Positions 12,526-47,908 of a stretch of 64,000 nt of DNA are shown here, piece after piece. The stretch is taken from positions 1 to 64,000 of the IMG/VR virus record IMGVR_UViG_3300007734_000753; one strand, written 5' to 3'. Under the pieces are notes generated by a model, which had not been told where the DNA came from, made no database searches, and was given only the letters and a program-made list of their open reading frames with translations. Within the stretch, counting starts at the first letter, position 1, and each line of letters begins with the position of its first letter. Source of the DNA: a virus. A program made the translations under genes and the position numbers.

Positions 12526-13050
12526 ATGATTTTAGGTTTAGACATTAGTACAAGCATCATTGGTTATACAATTCTTGATAAAGACAATAAAATAATTGAA
12601 TGCGATTGTATTCGTTTGGAAAAGTTCAAGGATTTTTTTGTAAAAGCCAAAAACGTCAAAAACAAACTAGTTTCAATCGCCAAGCAATATGATATAAGTT
12701 CGGTTTATATTGAGGAAAGCTTACAAGCGTTCAAGCCCGGTTTCTCTTCAGCCTCAACGATTCAGTCACTTTCTAAGTTCAATGGTGTTGTTTCGTGGTT
12801 GTGCAGTGAAATTTTCGATCTTACTCCTGAATATATTTCGGCTGGCACTGCAAGAAAATTTTGCGGAATAAAAGTTCCAAAGGGAGAGAAGGCAAAAATC
12901 TTCGTCTTCAACTTTATACTTGACACGATCCCCGAGTTCAACGTAGAATATACTGCTAAAGGCAATCCTGTCCCCGGTTCTTTTGACCGAGCTGACAGTT
13001 ATGTTATTGCCAAGGCAGGAAATGTTTTATGTCAAATGAACAAAAAATAA
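12526..13050 (+). CDS. RuvC-like Holliday junction resolvase / RNase H-fold nuclease
   Basis: The 174-residue protein has the RNase H-fold pattern of RuvC-type resolvases. It begins ILGLDISTSIIGYTIL with the first catalytic Asp at residue 5, has an acidic strand end 'VYIEES' near residue 65, and ends in a helix with 'FDRADSYVIA' that supplies the final Asp residues. Such enzymes cleave branched DNA intermediates; in a T4-like phage this would help resolve replicative DNA before packaging, the job T4 gives to endonuclease VII. A ribosome site AGAGG precedes the ATG. It overlaps the following primase gene by 22 bases, which supports a coupled DNA-processing operon. Confidence 0.75.
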   Translation: MILGLDISTSIIGYTILDKDNKIIECDCIRLEKFKDFFVKAKNVKNKLVSIAKQYDISSVYIEESLQAFKPGFSSASTIQSLSKFNGVVSWLCSEIFDLTPEYISAGTARKFCGIKVPKGEKAKIFVFNFILDTIPEFNVEYTAKGNPVPGSFDRADSYVIAKAGNVLCQMNKK

Positions 13051-41059: not shown

Positions 41060-44008
41060 ATGGCAGTGTCAGCAAAAAATTATCGTTTCGTATCCCCCGG
41101 CATCGTGACTCAAGAAATTGATCGTTCGCGTATTCCAAACGCCCCCGCTCCAATCGGACCAGTTGTGATTGGTCGTGCAGAGAGAGGTCCAGCTTTTACA
41201 CCAGTAACAGTTACTTCTTTTGATGAATTTACAAGCACATTTGGTAATCCAGTTCCCGGTGGTGTTGGTGGCGATGTTTGGAGAGATGGAAATAAAACCT
41301 CTCCAATGTATGGTACATATGCTGCACAAGCTTGGTTGAAAAATGGTCAAGCATTGACTTATGTTAGAGTACTCGGTGATCAGTCTGATTCGGCTACAAC
41401 GAACGGTAAAGCAGGTTGGAGCTTTGATGCGCCAACAACTACTAATTTCAAGGGTGCTTATGGTTTATTCGTTGCCCCTTCTGGTGCTGCCCCCGTAACT
41501 GGTGCTTTGGCAGCGGTTTGGTATTGTGGTACTGGCAATGGCTCTACCGACAGAGTTCCTGTTTTAGTGGGGACAACCCCCGGTTTGGCAGCCAATGTAG
41601 CTGGCACTTGTGGTTTTGTATCTACAACCGATGGAACATTTACTGCTTACTTGTCTGGTTCTAGTGGCGCTGCTTTAGGACCATATAAATTCAGTTTAGA
41701 TAAAACAAAGCCAAATTATATTAGAAAAGTATTCAACACCGATCCAACTCTTGTTGGTAAGTCTACTGCGTTTGGTGGAACTTCATACTTCTTAGGTGAA
41801 ACCTTTGAGGACGTATATACTAACAATACAAATACAGCTGGTTGGTCTTCAACTACAAATTACTATGCTGTAATTTTACCATTGACTGATGGTACTACAA
41901 ATTTTGCAAATCGTAAGTTTGCATATCAGCCAGCAAAATCTGGTTGGATTATTAGCCAAGATACCAGCGCCGATACCAGCTCATTTACAATAACTGGTGC
42001 AAATGGCACAGTAACAGGCTCTTTCTTCAATAGCGGAAGAGTAAAGAAGCTATTTAGATTTGCTGCTCTAAACTCTGGCGAGTGGATACAAAACAATCTA
42101 AAAATTGCCATTACAAACATTACTGCTCCAACCAACATCAATGTAAATCCTTATGCTACATTTGATGTAGAATTGAGACTATTATTCGATCAAGATACAA
42201 ATAAGAAAGTAGTTGAATCATTTAGTGGTTGTACTCTAAACGCTAATTCTGATTCATTTATTGCCAAAGTAATAGGTGATAAGTATGTAGACTATGATGA
42301 AACAAACGGCAGATTAGTTGAATATGGAAGCAATGAAAACAAATCAAGATATGTTCGCGTTGAAATGAATGACGAATTTATCAATGGTACATCCGATTAT
42401 GTTCCATTTGGTACAACTTTCCCCGTTGTTTACAAAAGCGCAACTATATCTGCGGCGAATGTCGGTGGCGCAGGCACACTAGCTGGAAATAAATACTTTG
42501 GTGACAAAACATATGCAGCAGCTTCTGCTTCCGCAACTGTTGCAATAACTGGTGCCATTTCTTCACAATGGGACTATCCAATTCCTTTATATAGAACTAC
42601 AACCTCTGGTTTGAGTTCTCTAAAGTTTGCCTATTTCGGCGCTCAACCAGTTTCTGATTCTGGCGTTGTTGCAGGTTCTGTGATTGATGTTCTAAGAATG
42701 AATGCGGCGTTAGCGGGTGCGGCTTCTTATGACCCCGATGATACTAATACTGCTTATTCTGCAATTATCACTTTAGATAATGTCAAATATAGCACAACCT
42801 TGGGGTCTAATAGCAACCCATATTCTGATTTATCTTACGCTAACAATGCAAGATCGAGTGGCGTTTCTTTGACCGCAACTGGCTCTTTACCAAGCACGTT
42901 ACCACAAGCAGCAACTGTTTCTGGAACATACAAAGCCCCGTTGGCTCTTGGTATAAATAAATTCTGTTCATATTTCTATAATGGTTCTGATGGTTTTGAC
43001 ATAATAGAGTCAAATCCTCTAAGAAATGGTTTGATTGCAACAAATGCAACTGCTCAAAATGATTACAGATTTTTCTCATATCAAAGAGCAATTGACACTG
43101 TAAAGAACCCTGAAATTGCACAATACAACGCAATTACTGTTCCCGGCTTAACAATTCAATCATTGCACAACCGTCTAATCAATAATACAGAAACAAGAGC
43201 AGATGCCTTGGCAATCGTTGATGTTCCTAAAGGTTACAATCCAGAAGCCGAATGGCAATGGTTTACCCAAACAAACACAACCGATGTACCAACCAAGGGC
43301 ACTGCGTATATGGGCAATGTAAACGATGCTGTATCCTTATGGACAACTCGCGCTTATAATAGCAATTATGCCTGCGCCTACTATCCATGGGTACAAATTA
43401 GAGATGCTGTAAATGGCACAAATGTATGGGTTCCACCTTCAGTTGTTGCTTTCGGCGCAATGGCTTATACAGACGCAGTTCAAGCTCCTTGGTTTGCTCC
43501 TGCTGGTTTCAACCGTGGTGGTTTATCAAGTGGTATTGCTGGCTTACCAGTAATCAATACTGCTCTCAAGCTATTCCAAACTGATAGAGATACTCTTTAT
43601 AACATCAACATCAATCCAATTGCTTCGTTCCCCAATGAAGGCGTTGTGATCTTTGGTCAAAAGACTCTACAGGTTGAGAGAAGTGCTCTCGATAGAATCA
43701 ATGTCCGCAGACTATTGATTTACGTCAAGAGCGGTATTTCTCAAATTGCTTCAAGAATTCTATTTGAGCAAAACATCCAAGACACTTGGAATAGATTTAT
43801 TGGTCAAGCAGAACCCTTCTTGGCTGATGTGAAATCAAGATTCGGCTTGGTTGATTACAAGTTCCTATTAGATCAAACAACAACCACACCAGATTTGATT
43901 GACCAAAATACTCTATATGCTAAAGTATACTTGAAGCCAGCCAGAGCAATTGAATTTATTGCACTTGACTTCATCATCACAAATACTGGCGCTTCTTTTG
44001 AGGACTAA
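41060..44008 (+). CDS. Tail sheath protein (T4 gp18-like), enlarged
   Basis: The 982-residue protein starts with the sheath signature 'SPGIVTQEIDRSRIPNAP', 'GPVVIGRAERGPAFTPVTVTSF' and 'FGNP'. It ends with the conserved core: 'RINVRRLLIYVKSGISQIASR', 'FEQNIQDTWNRFIGQAEPFLADVKSRFGL' and 'YLKPARAIEFIALDFIITNTG'. Contraction of the sheath drives the tube through the host envelope. T4 gp18 is 659 residues; the surplus lies in the Ser/Thr/Gly-rich middle (about 120-650), probably extra surface domains. Confidence 0.92.
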   Translation: MAVSAKNYRFVSPGIVTQEIDRSRIPNAPAPIGPVVIGRAERGPAFTPVTVTSFDEFTSTFGNPVPGGVGGDVWRDGNKTSPMYGTYAAQAWLKNGQALTYVRVLGDQSDSATTNGKAGWSFDAPTTTNFKGAYGLFVAPSGAAPVTGALAAVWYCGTGNGSTDRVPVLVGTTPGLAANVAGTCGFVSTTDGTFTAYLSGSSGAALGPYKFSLDKTKPNYIRKVFNTDPTLVGKSTAFGGTSYFLGETFEDVYTNNTNTAGWSSTTNYYAVILPLTDGTTNFANRKFAYQPAKSGWIISQDTSADTSSFTITGANGTVTGSFFNSGRVKKLFRFAALNSGEWIQNNLKIAITNITAPTNINVNPYATFDVELRLLFDQDTNKKVVESFSGCTLNANSDSFIAKVIGDKYVDYDETNGRLVEYGSNENKSRYVRVEMNDEFINGTSDYVPFGTTFPVVYKSATISAANVGGAGTLAGNKYFGDKTYAAASASATVAITGAISSQWDYPIPLYRTTTSGLSSLKFAYFGAQPVSDSGVVAGSVIDVLRMNAALAGAASYDPDDTNTAYSAIITLDNVKYSTTLGSNSNPYSDLSYANNARSSGVSLTATGSLPSTLPQAATVSGTYKAPLALGINKFCSYFYNGSDGFDIIESNPLRNGLIATNATAQNDYRFFSYQRAIDTVKNPEIAQYNAITVPGLTIQSLHNRLINNTETRADALAIVDVPKGYNPEAEWQWFTQTNTTDVPTKGTAYMGNVNDAVSLWTTRAYNSNYACAYYPWVQIRDAVNGTNVWVPPSVVAFGAMAYTDAVQAPWFAPAGFNRGGLSSGIAGLPVINTALKLFQTDRDTLYNININPIASFPNEGVVIFGQKTLQVERSALDRINVRRLLIYVKSGISQIASRILFEQNIQDTWNRFIGQAEPFLADVKSRFGLVDYKFLLDQTTTTPDLIDQNTLYAKVYLKPARAIEFIALDFIITNTGASFED

Positions 44009-44060: not shown

Positions 44061-44648
44061 ATGGCAAGCCCCCTAACACCTTGGACTCCCGGCTTTGAGC
44101 CAAAAAGAGAACATAAGTTTATATTGGAACTACAAAACATCAGCGCATATTTTATTACTGATGTTACTATTCCAAAAGCAACTATCACAGATACAGCGAA
44201 GCATAATTTTCTTTCTCATACTTTCAAGTTCCCCGGCAAATTATCTTGGGGTGATTCAACATTTACTCTTGTAGATCCAATCGATCTCAATGCAGTGGAT
44301 TTATTTATGAGACACCTAAAAGCTTCTGGCTACGTATTTCCAAGCAGCTTTGAGATAAACGACCCAACAAATTCAACTTATTACCTAAAAACAATAAAGA
44401 AGAGTTTTGTTAGCGCAAATAATCAGATTCAAGGTATGACAATAAAATCCATAGACTCTGATGGCAATCCAATCGAAGCTTGGACTCTAAAAAATGCTTT
44501 CATAAAAGATTTAGATTTTGGTAATTACAAGTATGACACAGAAGGTCTAAAGAACGTGAAAACAATTGTTTCATGTGATTGGGTTGATTACGAGAGCTTC
44601 CGTTCTATTGATGGTGTCCTCATAAATACCAAAACTATAGGTGGGTAA
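44061..44648 (+). CDS. Tail tube protein (T4 gp19-like), copy 1
   Basis: The 195-residue protein has the gp19 fold pattern: 'KREHKFILELQNISAYFITDVTIPKATI', 'FKFPGKLSWGDSTFTLVDP' and 'YDTEGLKNVKTIVSCDWVDYES'. T4 gp19 is 163 residues. Hexameric rings of this protein form the inner tube. A second, diverged copy follows three bases later. AAGGAG precedes the ATG, fitting high expression. Confidence 0.85.
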   Translation: MASPLTPWTPGFEPKREHKFILELQNISAYFITDVTIPKATITDTAKHNFLSHTFKFPGKLSWGDSTFTLVDPIDLNAVDLFMRHLKASGYVFPSSFEINDPTNSTYYLKTIKKSFVSANNQIQGMTIKSIDSDGNPIEAWTLKNAFIKDLDFGNYKYDTEGLKNVKTIVSCDWVDYESFRSIDGVLINTKTIGG

Positions 44649-44651
44649 TAG

Positions 44652-45278
44652 ATGGCTGAAATAAAGCCCGAAAAAGTTGTTTCCAGCTTATTTGGTGCTT
44701 ATCTTGATGCTCCATTAGTTCCAGAATATGCTTTCAAGAGCGCTCAACAATCTCACAGATTTATACTTGAAGTTCAAGGTCTAAATGTTGCATTTGTTAA
44801 AGAGGTAAAGCGCCCATCTTTTTCAATAGAGTATCAAGAATTTGATCATTTAGGATATATAACCAAATTTCCTAAAAAAATAAAATGGGATAACATTTCG
44901 TTTACAGTTATTGAAACCTATGATTATAGAGCCTTGGGTACTGTTTTGGGCAATATGATACATAAAGCACAAACAACGGCATATAGATACCCAACAAACA
45001 TCATATCATCTCAATTTTTTAACTTATCAAAGAAAAATCTGATAAACGATTTTGGTAATATAAATATAAAAACTATTGATCCAGATGGCAATGTTGTCGA
45101 TACGTGGCGCATATACAATCCAATGGTATCAAAAATTACACCATCACAGTTGAGTTATGCTTCTGATGACTTAACAAATACACAAGTTGAGCTAACATAT
45201 GATTGGGCAGAATACTATCTATCTAGCGACATTAGACCCGGTAAATTAGCTCAAGTAGGCATAGATAGAATTTTTTAA
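44652..45278 (+). CDS. Tail tube-like protein, copy 2 (diverged paralogue)
   Basis: The 208-residue protein repeats the same plan as its neighbour: 'QSHRFILEVQGLNVAFVKEVKRPSFSI', 'TKFPKKIKWDNISFTVIE', 'IKTIDPDGNVVDTWRI' and 'LTNTQVELTYDWAEYY'. Identity by eye is low except at these strands. It could be a second tube subunit, or a specialised ring at the tube end, in the manner of T4 gp48 and gp54. The adjacent position and shared motifs point to an old duplication. Confidence 0.75.
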   Translation: MAEIKPEKVVSSLFGAYLDAPLVPEYAFKSAQQSHRFILEVQGLNVAFVKEVKRPSFSIEYQEFDHLGYITKFPKKIKWDNISFTVIETYDYRALGTVLGNMIHKAQTTAYRYPTNIISSQFFNLSKKNLINDFGNINIKTIDPDGNVVDTWRIYNPMVSKITPSQLSYASDDLTNTQVELTYDWAEYYLSSDIRPGKLAQVGIDRIF

Positions 45279-45290
45279 TAAGAGGTTATA

Positions 45291-46148
45291 ATGAGTAGCA
45301 GAAATAACGGGAGCAGATTTTCTGCTCCTTTGATGCCAGAAGATTTGAGAAGTCAAATGATGGCAGCCAGTGTTCATCAACAAAATCAAGCATCATATCA
45401 AACACCAACGGAAGTTGTTGAATTACCATCAAAAGGATTGTTTTATCCAGAAGGGCATCCTTTGCATAATGCAGAAACAGTTGAAATAAAGTTCATGACA
45501 ACCAAAGAGGAAGACATTTTGACTTCACCAACATTGGTGGAAAAAGGTATTGTCTTTGATAAACTTATTGAGAGTATTTTGGTTGATAAAAGAATTGATG
45601 TTTCCAGCCTAATAACTGGTGACAGAAATGCGATTTTATCAAGAGCAAGAATTTCAGCATATGGTCCCGAGTATTCATTTGCAGCATCGTGCCCTTCCTG
45701 CTCTACAATACAAAAAGTTGATCATTTATTTACAGAGCTAAAGAATAAAGAAATTTCCTACGATGAACTTGAAATAGAAAATGGTCTTTTCAAGCTTACT
45801 CTTCCAAAAAGCGGTGCAGTTGTGCATATGAAACTTTTGACAGGTAGAGATGAAAAAGAGATTGCCGAAGAACAAAAAAGAAGAATAAAAGCAAACCTTC
45901 CAGAAGAGCAGCTTGTTTTGACTTATAGAAAAATGATTGTGAAAGTAAATGGTAATGATGATATATTTGCAATTGCTAATTTCGTCACTTCAATGCCAAT
46001 TTTGGACTCAAGATATATACGTAAGACTTATGCAGAAATAAAACCAGATCTAGATTTGACATATCGCTTTCAGTGCCAAAAATGTGGTCATGTCGATGAT
46101 GGAGGTGTTGTCTCTATTACTGGAGACTTTTTTTGGCCTCAACTCTGA
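45291..46148 (+). CDS. Baseplate hub/tail assembly chaperone (T4 gp26/gp51 type), 0-frame product
   Basis: The 285-residue protein has 'VELPSKGLFYPEGHPL' followed by 'VEIKFMTTKEEDILTS', 'DRNAILSRARISAYGPEYSF' and a split zinc site (CPSC near residue 142, CQKC near 263). This is the pattern of T4-like gp26/gp51 hub assembly proteins. The gene lies exactly between tail tube and tape-measure genes, the standard place of tail assembly chaperones in other tailed phages. Its last codons run over a T7 tract and end FFWPQL. A +1 shift there would join it to the overlapping frame (see next entries). Confidence 0.75.
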   Translation: MSSRNNGSRFSAPLMPEDLRSQMMAASVHQQNQASYQTPTEVVELPSKGLFYPEGHPLHNAETVEIKFMTTKEEDILTSPTLVEKGIVFDKLIESILVDKRIDVSSLITGDRNAILSRARISAYGPEYSFAASCPSCSTIQKVDHLFTELKNKEISYDELEIENGLFKLTLPKSGAVVHMKLLTGRDEKEIAEEQKRRIKANLPEEQLVLTYRKMIVKVNGNDDIFAIANFVTSMPILDSRYIRKTYAEIKPDLDLTYRFQCQKCGHVDDGGVVSITGDFFWPQL

Positions 46149-46302
46149 TTATATTCATAGTGTTTATGACAAGATTTTTTATATGATTCAATTGGGTAAT
46201 TGGCGCTTTTTTGAGGTTCACGCTATTCCTGTTACCTTGAGAAACTGGTTTTTTGATAAATTGCTTGAATATATGCAGAAGCAAAATACAACAAATAATT
46301 AG
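46084..46302 (+). CDS. Overlapping chaperone extension (frameshift product C-terminus)
   Basis: This frame overlaps the end of the previous gene. Its first 15 codons look like a shadow, but from 46129 on it encodes FFGLNSDYIHSVYDKIF, then 'FFEVHAIPVTLRNWFFDKLLEYM', which has the look of a real conserved helical domain (Pro-x-x-LR near the middle). In related phages I know similar C-terminal blocks attached to gp26/51-type proteins. A +1 shift at 46128-46134 would give a 336-residue fusion. Independent initiation at the internal ATG 46084 is the alternative. Confidence 0.6.
   Translation: MVMSMMEVLSLLLETFFGLNSDYIHSVYDKIFYMIQLGNWRFFEVHAIPVTLRNWFFDKLLEYMQKQNTTNN
46128..46134 (+). promoter_or_regulatory. 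Candidate +1 frameshift site: T7 run
   Basis: In the 0 frame the codons read GAC TTT TTT TGG. Slipping one base forward gives GAC TTT TTT GGC and continues into a second open frame for 55 codons. A homopolymer before a rare Trp codon is a plausible slip site; no experiment is available. Confidence 0.5.
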
Positions 46303-46336: not shown

Positions 46337-47908
46337 ATGGCTGAAATTAGTGCGGAAGAAAAAGTACTTTCATCAAGTAAAGCTCTTTTTGATTTAGCCA
46401 AAGGCACCAAAGACGCTTTTTCTGATATTGTAACCAAAATTGATGATTCAACAACTGCAGCAAATGGTCTAAGAATACAATTTCAGCAAGCGTTTGGCAT
46501 ATTTGATGCCCAACAGGGCAGAGATTTGGTAAAAAGATTTGCCGATATAAGCAGTGAACTAATGTCACAAGGTATATCCGCAGAAAAATTAGGAGAAGCT
46601 TATAAAGTAGTAGGCACTGGAATCAATAATTTTATTATTAATAGAAGCAGTGAAGCTGTTGAGTCTTTTTCTAAATTAGCTGCCATAAACAGTAAATTTG
46701 GCGTGGATATGCAAAGCACAGTTGGTGTAATTAATTATTTATCAACTGGGTTTAACAAAAGCACCGAAGATATAACTAAATTCTCAAATAAACTGATGCA
46801 GTTTTCTAGAGAAACTGGTCAAGAATTTCGAAAAGTTTTTCAAGACTTTAATGAATCTATTAGAAGTTTCTATACAATTTTAGATCCAGACAAAGCAGCG
46901 ACTCAATTTATGTCTTTTCAACAAATGGCAAAAGGCTTTGGAAGCACTATTGATAAGTTGATGGATACCGCTGCAAAATTCGACAACATTGAAGAAGGTG
47001 TGGAATTTGGCGCAAAACTAAACAATGTTTTATCAGCCGTTGGCGGTTCATTTGATGCAATGTATGCATCAACAGCAAACTATGATGATAGAATAAAACT
47101 TATTATTCAAAGTATCGCCAATTCTAGAGATCAAATAACTGCAATGTCCGAAGTTTCTCAAAGAGCGTATGTCAGGCAGCTAGAGCAGACAACTGGTCTT
47201 GGTGGGCAAACAATTCAAGCGATCCTGAGAAACGATAAATTGGTTGAAAGTATGGATCAACTTACCAGCAAACAGTTTGACCAAATAAAAGAAGCACCGG
47301 TTGATCAAATGGCTGATAATTTTACAACGTTTCAAGATCGTGCAAACTTATTTATGAATCAGTATTTGAAAGTTGGTGCGCGCCTAGAAGGCTTCTTTGA
47401 CCAATCAAGTAAAAATGTTAGAGATACACAAAAGAAAATACTAGATACAACAACAGCAATGGTTACCTCCGCAAGAACCGCACAAGAATTACTATTAAAT
47501 TTAAAATCCGCTTTCTCTAAAGATAAATTAGAAGATCTTTATAATAAAGCAGTATCAGAAGTTGAAAAAAATGCAGAAAGTTTAAGAAAATCTATTAAAA
47601 GCTCTCTAGGCGAAGGTTCTTCGGGGGGCGTAGAATATAAAGTAAAACAACCCGGCAAACCAGAATCGCCCGCTGGGGGCGGAAAGATTCCAGTATATAA
47701 TCCAAATACAATGAGAGAAGATGTAAAGCAAGGAGCCACTGATGGTATTGCTGCGGGCACAAAACAAGCACTAATAGATATATCAAAAGCAGCTATTGCC
47801 AAACATGAAATTGTTGTTCATGTCAAGCCAACAGATGTAATGATAGCACTAATACAAGGCGGAACAGCCTCTAGAGCATTAGGTGCCGCCATAGGTCAAA
47901 CGCCATAG
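46337..47908 (+). CDS. Tape-measure / tail length regulator candidate (T4 gp29 position)
   Basis: The 523-residue protein is largely helical ('RIQFQQAFGIFDAQQGRDLVKRFADISSELMSQG', 'KFSNKLMQFSRETGQEFRKVFQ') with a Gly/Pro-rich gap near residue 430 and a small C-terminal domain. T4 gp29 has 590 residues and a similar helical make-up. Its place directly after the chaperone frames is the standard tape-measure position. It lacks the long hydrophobic segment often seen in tape measures of siphoviruses. Called by context and secondary-structure style. Confidence 0.6.
   Translation: MAEISAEEKVLSSSKALFDLAKGTKDAFSDIVTKIDDSTTAANGLRIQFQQAFGIFDAQQGRDLVKRFADISSELMSQGISAEKLGEAYKVVGTGINNFIINRSSEAVESFSKLAAINSKFGVDMQSTVGVINYLSTGFNKSTEDITKFSNKLMQFSRETGQEFRKVFQDFNESIRSFYTILDPDKAATQFMSFQQMAKGFGSTIDKLMDTAAKFDNIEEGVEFGAKLNNVLSAVGGSFDAMYASTANYDDRIKLIIQSIANSRDQITAMSEVSQRAYVRQLEQTTGLGGQTIQAILRNDKLVESMDQLTSKQFDQIKEAPVDQMADNFTTFQDRANLFMNQYLKVGARLEGFFDQSSKNVRDTQKKILDTTTAMVTSARTAQELLLNLKSAFSKDKLEDLYNKAVSEVEKNAESLRKSIKSSLGEGSSGGVEYKVKQPGKPESPAGGGKIPVYNPNTMREDVKQGATDGIAAGTKQALIDISKAAIAKHEIVVHVKPTDVMIALIQGGTASRALGAAIGQTP

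Follow-up and report, generated by a model that had tools for sequence, protein, structure and literature searches.

A probable +1 ribosomal frameshift that extends a predicted tail assembly chaperone in T4-like phages

A gene located between the tail tube genes and the probable tape measure gene of a T4-like virus very probably gives rise to two forms of a tail assembly chaperone (TAC), a short form of 285 residues (TAC-N) and a long form of 336 residues (TAC-NC) reached by a +1 ribosomal slip on a run of seven T residues (T7). Within this explanation, we infer the efficiency of the slip, the exact slip step and the chaperone action of the products. The gene lies in a window of 64,000 nucleotides that makes up positions 1 to 64,000 of the 76.7-kb IMG/VR virus record IMGVR_UViG_3300007734_000753, the tail module of which is T4-like. 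The features of the locus are as follows.

41060-44008: tail sheath gene, part of the T4-like tail module
44061-44648, + strand: first gp19-like tail tube gene (Phage_T4_gp19, E = 0.035; phrog_4542)
44652-45278, + strand: second gp19-like tail tube gene (Phage_T4_gp19, E = 1.1e-8; phrog_4542)
45291-46148, + strand: TAC-N, short tail assembly chaperone, 285 aa (PF12322; phrog_150 'baseplate hub')
46101-46106, + strand: Shine-Dalgarno (SD)-like GGAGGT, 24 nt 5' of the slip codon
46128-46134, + strand: T7 slip tract, from the sequence
46131-46133 and 46134-46136, + strand: proposed P-site slip codon TTT and A-site codon TGG
46135-46302, + strand: +1-frame extension (TAC-C), a conserved open frame of 55 aa plus stop
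First 281 codons of the 45291 gene plus TAC-C, + strand: TAC-NC, 336 aa, predicted
46337-47908, + strand: probable tape measure gene, 523 aa (by position and a weak PhageMin_Tail match)

The TAC-N gene is directly 3' of the tube genes and 5' of the probable tape measure gene. The latter matched PhageMin_Tail in Pfam with an E value of 0.0018, which is under the gathering cut-off, and the gene at the corresponding place is annotated as the tape measure in phages LIS04 and immuto. The two tube genes stand in tandem, with only one clearing the Pfam cut-off, and may represent a divergent duplication. The sheath protein, at 982 aa, is longer than those of LIS04 (~505 aa) and SP-15 (~494 aa).

The 3' end of the 45291 gene reads GGA GAC TTT TTT TGG CCT CAA CTC TGA, with the stop codon TGA at 46146-46148. 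Over the same bases, the +1 frame reads TTT TTT GGC CTC AAC TCT GAT and then stays open until TAG at 46300-46302, such that a forward slip by one base joins 281 residues to 55. An earlier sequence-only reading of this DNA had noted a T7 at 46128-46134 under the gene end, a +1 product of 336 rather than 285 residues, and a chaperone gene set between tube and tape measure genes. The tract and the arithmetic were confirmed, and the layout agrees, with 46337-47908 directly downstream. TTT TTT TGG occurs a single time among the 19,710 codons of the window, which also has T runs of 7-8 at 12633, 25686, 58339 and 59838. The window does not have its extension in the -1 frame, as a canonical heptamer X XXY YYZ would require; a -1 shift at the T7 misses the +1 frame of the extension. 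As around 2% of simulated sequences contain a 55-codon open frame, such a frame is by itself weak evidence; we consider it more than chance because both the site and the extension are conserved in 175 distinct loci.

TAC-N matched the T4_baseplate family (PF12322; E = 2.9e-11, 43.9 bits; cut-off 24.5) in an alignment that runs to residue 282, which is the slip point, and also matched phrog_150 (E = 6e-14). T4 gp51 itself scores 177.5 bits against PF12322, spanning residues 1-201 of 249. Using HHalign, the profile of the family aligned to T4 gp26 (E = 3e-8) as far as the slip, and to T4 gp51 (E = 3e-4) across it; gp26 and gp51 are related to one another (E = 3e-17), with the C terminus of gp51 being about 46 residues longer. 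The fusion profile had no sequence relative in the PDB. The AlphaFold2 model of TAC-N had a pLDDT of 91. Its top two matches among 604 PDB chains were the HK97 tail assembly chaperone (2OB9, Z = 5.5) and YqbN (3KLU, Z = 5.2), which we take to be an XkdN-type chaperone, both below the guide value of 8 and spanning TAC-N residues 23-127; Foldseek also ranked 2OB9 first (E = 1.1). That both of the best matches are tail chaperones, despite weak Z scores, is suggestive of a TAC fold for the model. The pairing of a short with a C-terminally extended form, a trait of TACs, is represented here by the conserved overlap and extension at the level of sequence. Because the alignment to gp26 stops at the slip and that to gp51 passes beyond it, and because the best, albeit weak, PDB matches are two tail assembly chaperones, we regard the locus with high confidence as the TAC-N/TAC-NC pair of a T4-like contractile phage, in which the proteins would act as chaperones. 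The gp26/gp51 alignments and the structural matches likewise support the earlier suggestion that gp26/51-type proteins are the tail assembly chaperones of T4-like phages.

The extension itself has the properties of a protein domain. Excluding codons that overlap the first gene, the median dN/dS was 0.12 and the maximum 0.41 over 45 non-independent pairs of relatives, indicating that the extension evolves under purifying selection. Its consensus is FFGLxxxYxxxVYExxFxLKYxGGWSFxExYNLPxxLRxWFxxRL, and when the short form and the extension were folded apart in AlphaFold2, the extension was predicted to form three helices with a mean pLDDT of 91. Selection and the confident fold together back the initial impression that the second frame encodes a real domain. 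Among 57 relatives of the extension, 17 matched phrog_20255 and 4 matched phrog_634 ('baseplate hub assembly catalyst'); the extension of the window matched neither. Profile comparison of the extension alone with gp51 gave no significant match, and neither did a Foldseek search of its model against a viral library, in which P-HM1 Gp51 and a KPV15 baseplate protein appeared as weak hits. We also weighed T4 gp28 as the protein corresponding to the extension but rejected it (HHalign E = 0.14).

To assess conservation, we collected more than 300 homologous loci by scanning viral contigs and searching the proteins of a phage collection, and added selected records. In the 286 loci long enough for frame classification, the extension was in the +1 frame in 204, in the -1 frame in 76 and in a separate gene in 6. 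We tabulated P- and A-site codons for 175 distinct +1 loci, each with a +1 frame that runs open through this point. Aligning homologues had been proposed as a check by the sequence-only reading, and this showed conservation of both frames and of the slip site. The codons leading up to the shift read TTT TTT TGG in 127 loci, TTT TTT TAC in 21 and TTT CTT TGG in 5, with TTT or TTC followed by TTT CGN making up the remaining common sites; overall, YTT nearly always precedes TGG, TAC or CGN. At nearly all sites, the P-site tRNA can re-pair one base 3' (TTT to TTT, CTT to TTT or TTT to TTC). The P-site codon of the 158 TGG and TAC sites is TTT in 152, CTT in 6 and TTC in none, and the Phe codons of the same genes are 77% TTT and 23% TTC; as the loci share ancestry, we attach no formal probability to these counts. 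The arrangement is also found in isolated phages of Microcystis, Flavobacterium, Rhodothermus, Bacillus, Listeria and Streptococcus. One subclade (loci L218, L221, L223 and L227) has the overlap without a good TTT slip codon (TTA/CTA TTY AAT); a CCC AGT common to its members may permit a +1 slip from CCC to CCA.

Several other routes could lead to the same product. The ribosome could instead slip by -2, as in gpGT of phage Mu, reaching the same frame with one extra Phe. At TTT TTT TGG, including the T7 of the window, re-pairing at -2 is as good as at +1, and Mu gpGT has been described as the sole known natural case of programmed -2 frameshifting (PMC3498833). The variants of the family separate the two: TTC TTT NNN sites (six, and others such as L209, L215 and L225; Streptococcus phage GXN1 has one of this type) mismatch at the middle position at -2 and keep good pairing at +1, excepting sites where other slips are possible, and AAC TTT CTA in LR756508, judging from its letters, should be unable to re-pair at -2. 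We accordingly rate a -2 slip as highly improbable. Transcriptional slippage, in which RNA polymerase on the T7 would yield mRNA lacking one U or carrying two more, draws on the 7-base T run present at most sites, and we rate it as highly improbable: T runs are only 3-4 long at six distinct CTT TGG sites (including that of immuto), at the TTC TTT variants and in LR756508, and the extension is conserved at short-run sites as well. Of these, CTT TGG (immuto), TTC TTT CGT (GXN1) and AAC TTT CTA (LR756508) have no more than three T in a row. A +1 ribosomal slip is favoured because of these variants, some without a long T run and some breaking the -2 re-pairing.

The extension could also be a separate small gene starting inside the first, as it is annotated in phage Mel-JY01. 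The +1 frame of the window does have start codons 5' of the slip, from GTG 46084 onwards, and the L021/L024 group has a genuine separate gene with an ATG 14 nt past the stop. However, 45 of the 175 loci lack any ATG, GTG or TTG between the opening of the +1 frame and 10 codons beyond the slip, the frame opens merely 8-14 nt ahead of the slip in many loci, and the clade with split genes is nested within the +1 clade, making an internal start very improbable as the general explanation. The earlier reading had named a second frame that always has its own start as the outcome that would speak against it; a separate start codon was found in one small nested clade only. A sequencing error in a tract of truly six T, with one continuous frame, is extremely unlikely even for an error-prone homopolymer, because the identical T7 recurs in metagenome assemblies made independently (L002-L005) and in the isolated phages Mel-JY01 and RM378, and the same frame change occurs at non-homopolymer sites.

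For the +1 slip, we propose the following sequence of events. Most ribosomes would terminate at 46148 and release TAC-N. In a minority, the P-site Phe-tRNA would be paired with UUU 46131-46133 while UGG waits in the A site, and would move forward by one base onto UUU 46132-46134. Reading in the +1 frame would then add the three-helix domain to give TAC-NC. The junction peptide expected for +1 is ...GDFFGLNSDYIHSVYDK (..DFFG..), and that for -2 is ...GDFFFGL..., with its extra Phe. By analogy with lambda gpG/gpGT, the coat around the tape measure protein would consist of many copies of TAC-N and few of TAC-NC, with the additional domain of the latter bringing in tube subunits. Across the family, a P-site slip of Phe- or Leu-tRNA with UGG, UAC or CGN waiting appears to be the parsimonious reading. 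The A-site codon is conserved as one of these (TGG, TAC or CGN), that is, as a sense codon. A search for a stimulatory RNA structure past the slip found none, the predicted folding there being weak (mean z of about -0.6).

Upstream of the slip, ~45% of 110 de-duplicated loci had an SD-like GGAGGT at -25 to -20 relative to the slip codon, compared with ~3% in gene bodies. The Glu codon inside it is GAG in 60 loci, a strong preference over GAA, given that GAG makes up 29% of the Glu codons in the same genes. The element lies 19 nt from the slip codon in relatives and 24 nt in the window, where a second GGAG is located 5 nt 5' of the slip codon (46122-46125). In prfB, which encodes release factor 2, the SD sequence is located 3 nt upstream of the shift site; a spacing of 19-24 nt does not fit a stimulator of the prfB type and is not known from any other.

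In a sister clade, the T-rich stretch at this point of the protein lies in the other phase (T TTT TTC or T TTT TTT), and it is the -1 frame that encodes the extension, in keeping with the canonical -1 heptamer X XXY YYZ. RaK2, GAP32, PA5oct-like Cassandra, RAS14 and numerous environmental phages belong to this clade. We built a tree of 119 representatives by a quick method with SH-aLRT support. Uncertain in deep placements such as those of L038 and L207, it needs four changes among the +1, -1 and split states, and the starred branches require two or more for the +1 label. In the split clade (L021, L022 and L024-L027), the slip codon has been lost (TTC TTT TTC) and the domain starts from an ATG of its own, which we read as a case in nature of gene splitting taking the place of frameshifting. 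We give an even chance to the broader proposal that, within one orthologous T4-like chaperone gene, the direction of the shift has switched between deep clades, +1 at YUU before UGG, UAC or CGN and -1 at U UUU UUC, depending on the phase in which one and the same T-rich tract lies at that position of the protein, and that one branch has split the gene instead; the +1 site would then be an unusually widespread recoding site that relies on a sense codon and lacks evident structure.

Frameshifting is reportedly conserved in several T4-like groups, with T4 itself using genes 26 and 51. That gp26 and gp51 represent the T4-like TACs is not new, having been proposed by Vladimirov, Gautam & Davidson 2022 (Virology 566:9-15), which PMC10885494 and PMC12846349 cite for the identification of the TAC genes of T4-like phages. 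As that study is cited, T4-like phages have a short gene alongside a longer, fused one (PMC10885494), and their TAC-N genes carry poly-T -1 signals (PMC12846349). The locus described here resembles these in belonging to the gp26/gp51 family, in its place before the tape measure gene and in a long form that equals the short form plus a C-terminal domain; it differs from T4, where the short and long proteins come from the separate genes 26 and 51, and from the poly-T sites as cited in that its shift is +1 rather than -1. The training set of PRFect includes 350 forward slippery sites, mostly from TAC genes (PMC10885494), and therefore +1 shifts in TACs are not unheard of. Two points may be new: the +1 direction among T4-like phages and, within one orthologous gene, the deep division between +1 and -1.

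Among more distant systems, lambda gpG/gpGT and SPP1 gp17.5/17.5* also consist of a short chaperone and a frameshift-extended form encoded 5' of the tape measure gene, and the putative SPP1 site is similarly U-rich (UUUUUUC; PMC6316719), although lambda gpG/gpGT and its relatives use a -1 shift. Phage Mu gpGT is a tail assembly chaperone fusion made through the same net frame (-2 equals +1), but Mu goes -2 whereas the variants of the present family favour +1. The prfB site (CUU UGA) re-pairs at +1 in the same way as the members of this family, which have a P-site CUU or UUU with a U after it, and in the prfB context the slipperiest +1 codons are CUU, CCC and UUU (PMC10885494). By contrast, prfB has a stop codon in the A site where this family has a sense codon (UGG, UAC or CGN), its SD has no conserved equivalent 3 nt upstream in the family, and it serves autoregulation rather than a product ratio. 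Influenza A PA-X shifts +1 at UUU_CGU (PMC3498833), and part of the SP-15/GXN1-like branch likewise has UUU in the P site and CGU in the A site, a mechanistic parallel only, as the gene is unrelated and the ribosome eukaryotic.

These findings point to an unannotated, predicted long isoform in a large and mostly environmental group of T4-like phages. One stoichiometry problem appears to have been solved in the same gene in several ways: by shifting +1, by shifting -1, by splitting the gene and, in T4, by having two complete genes. Small reporter constructs would therefore allow a direct test of how recoding evolves. The findings also correct the annotations of Mel-JY01, immuto, SP-15, LIS04, RM378, RaK2 and GAP32, in which the extension was missed or called a separate short gene. 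In Mel-JY01 and GAP32 it is annotated as a separate hypothetical protein, and in RaK2 it is unannotated (L029 4345-4581; L325 2361 onward; L326 2379-2555).
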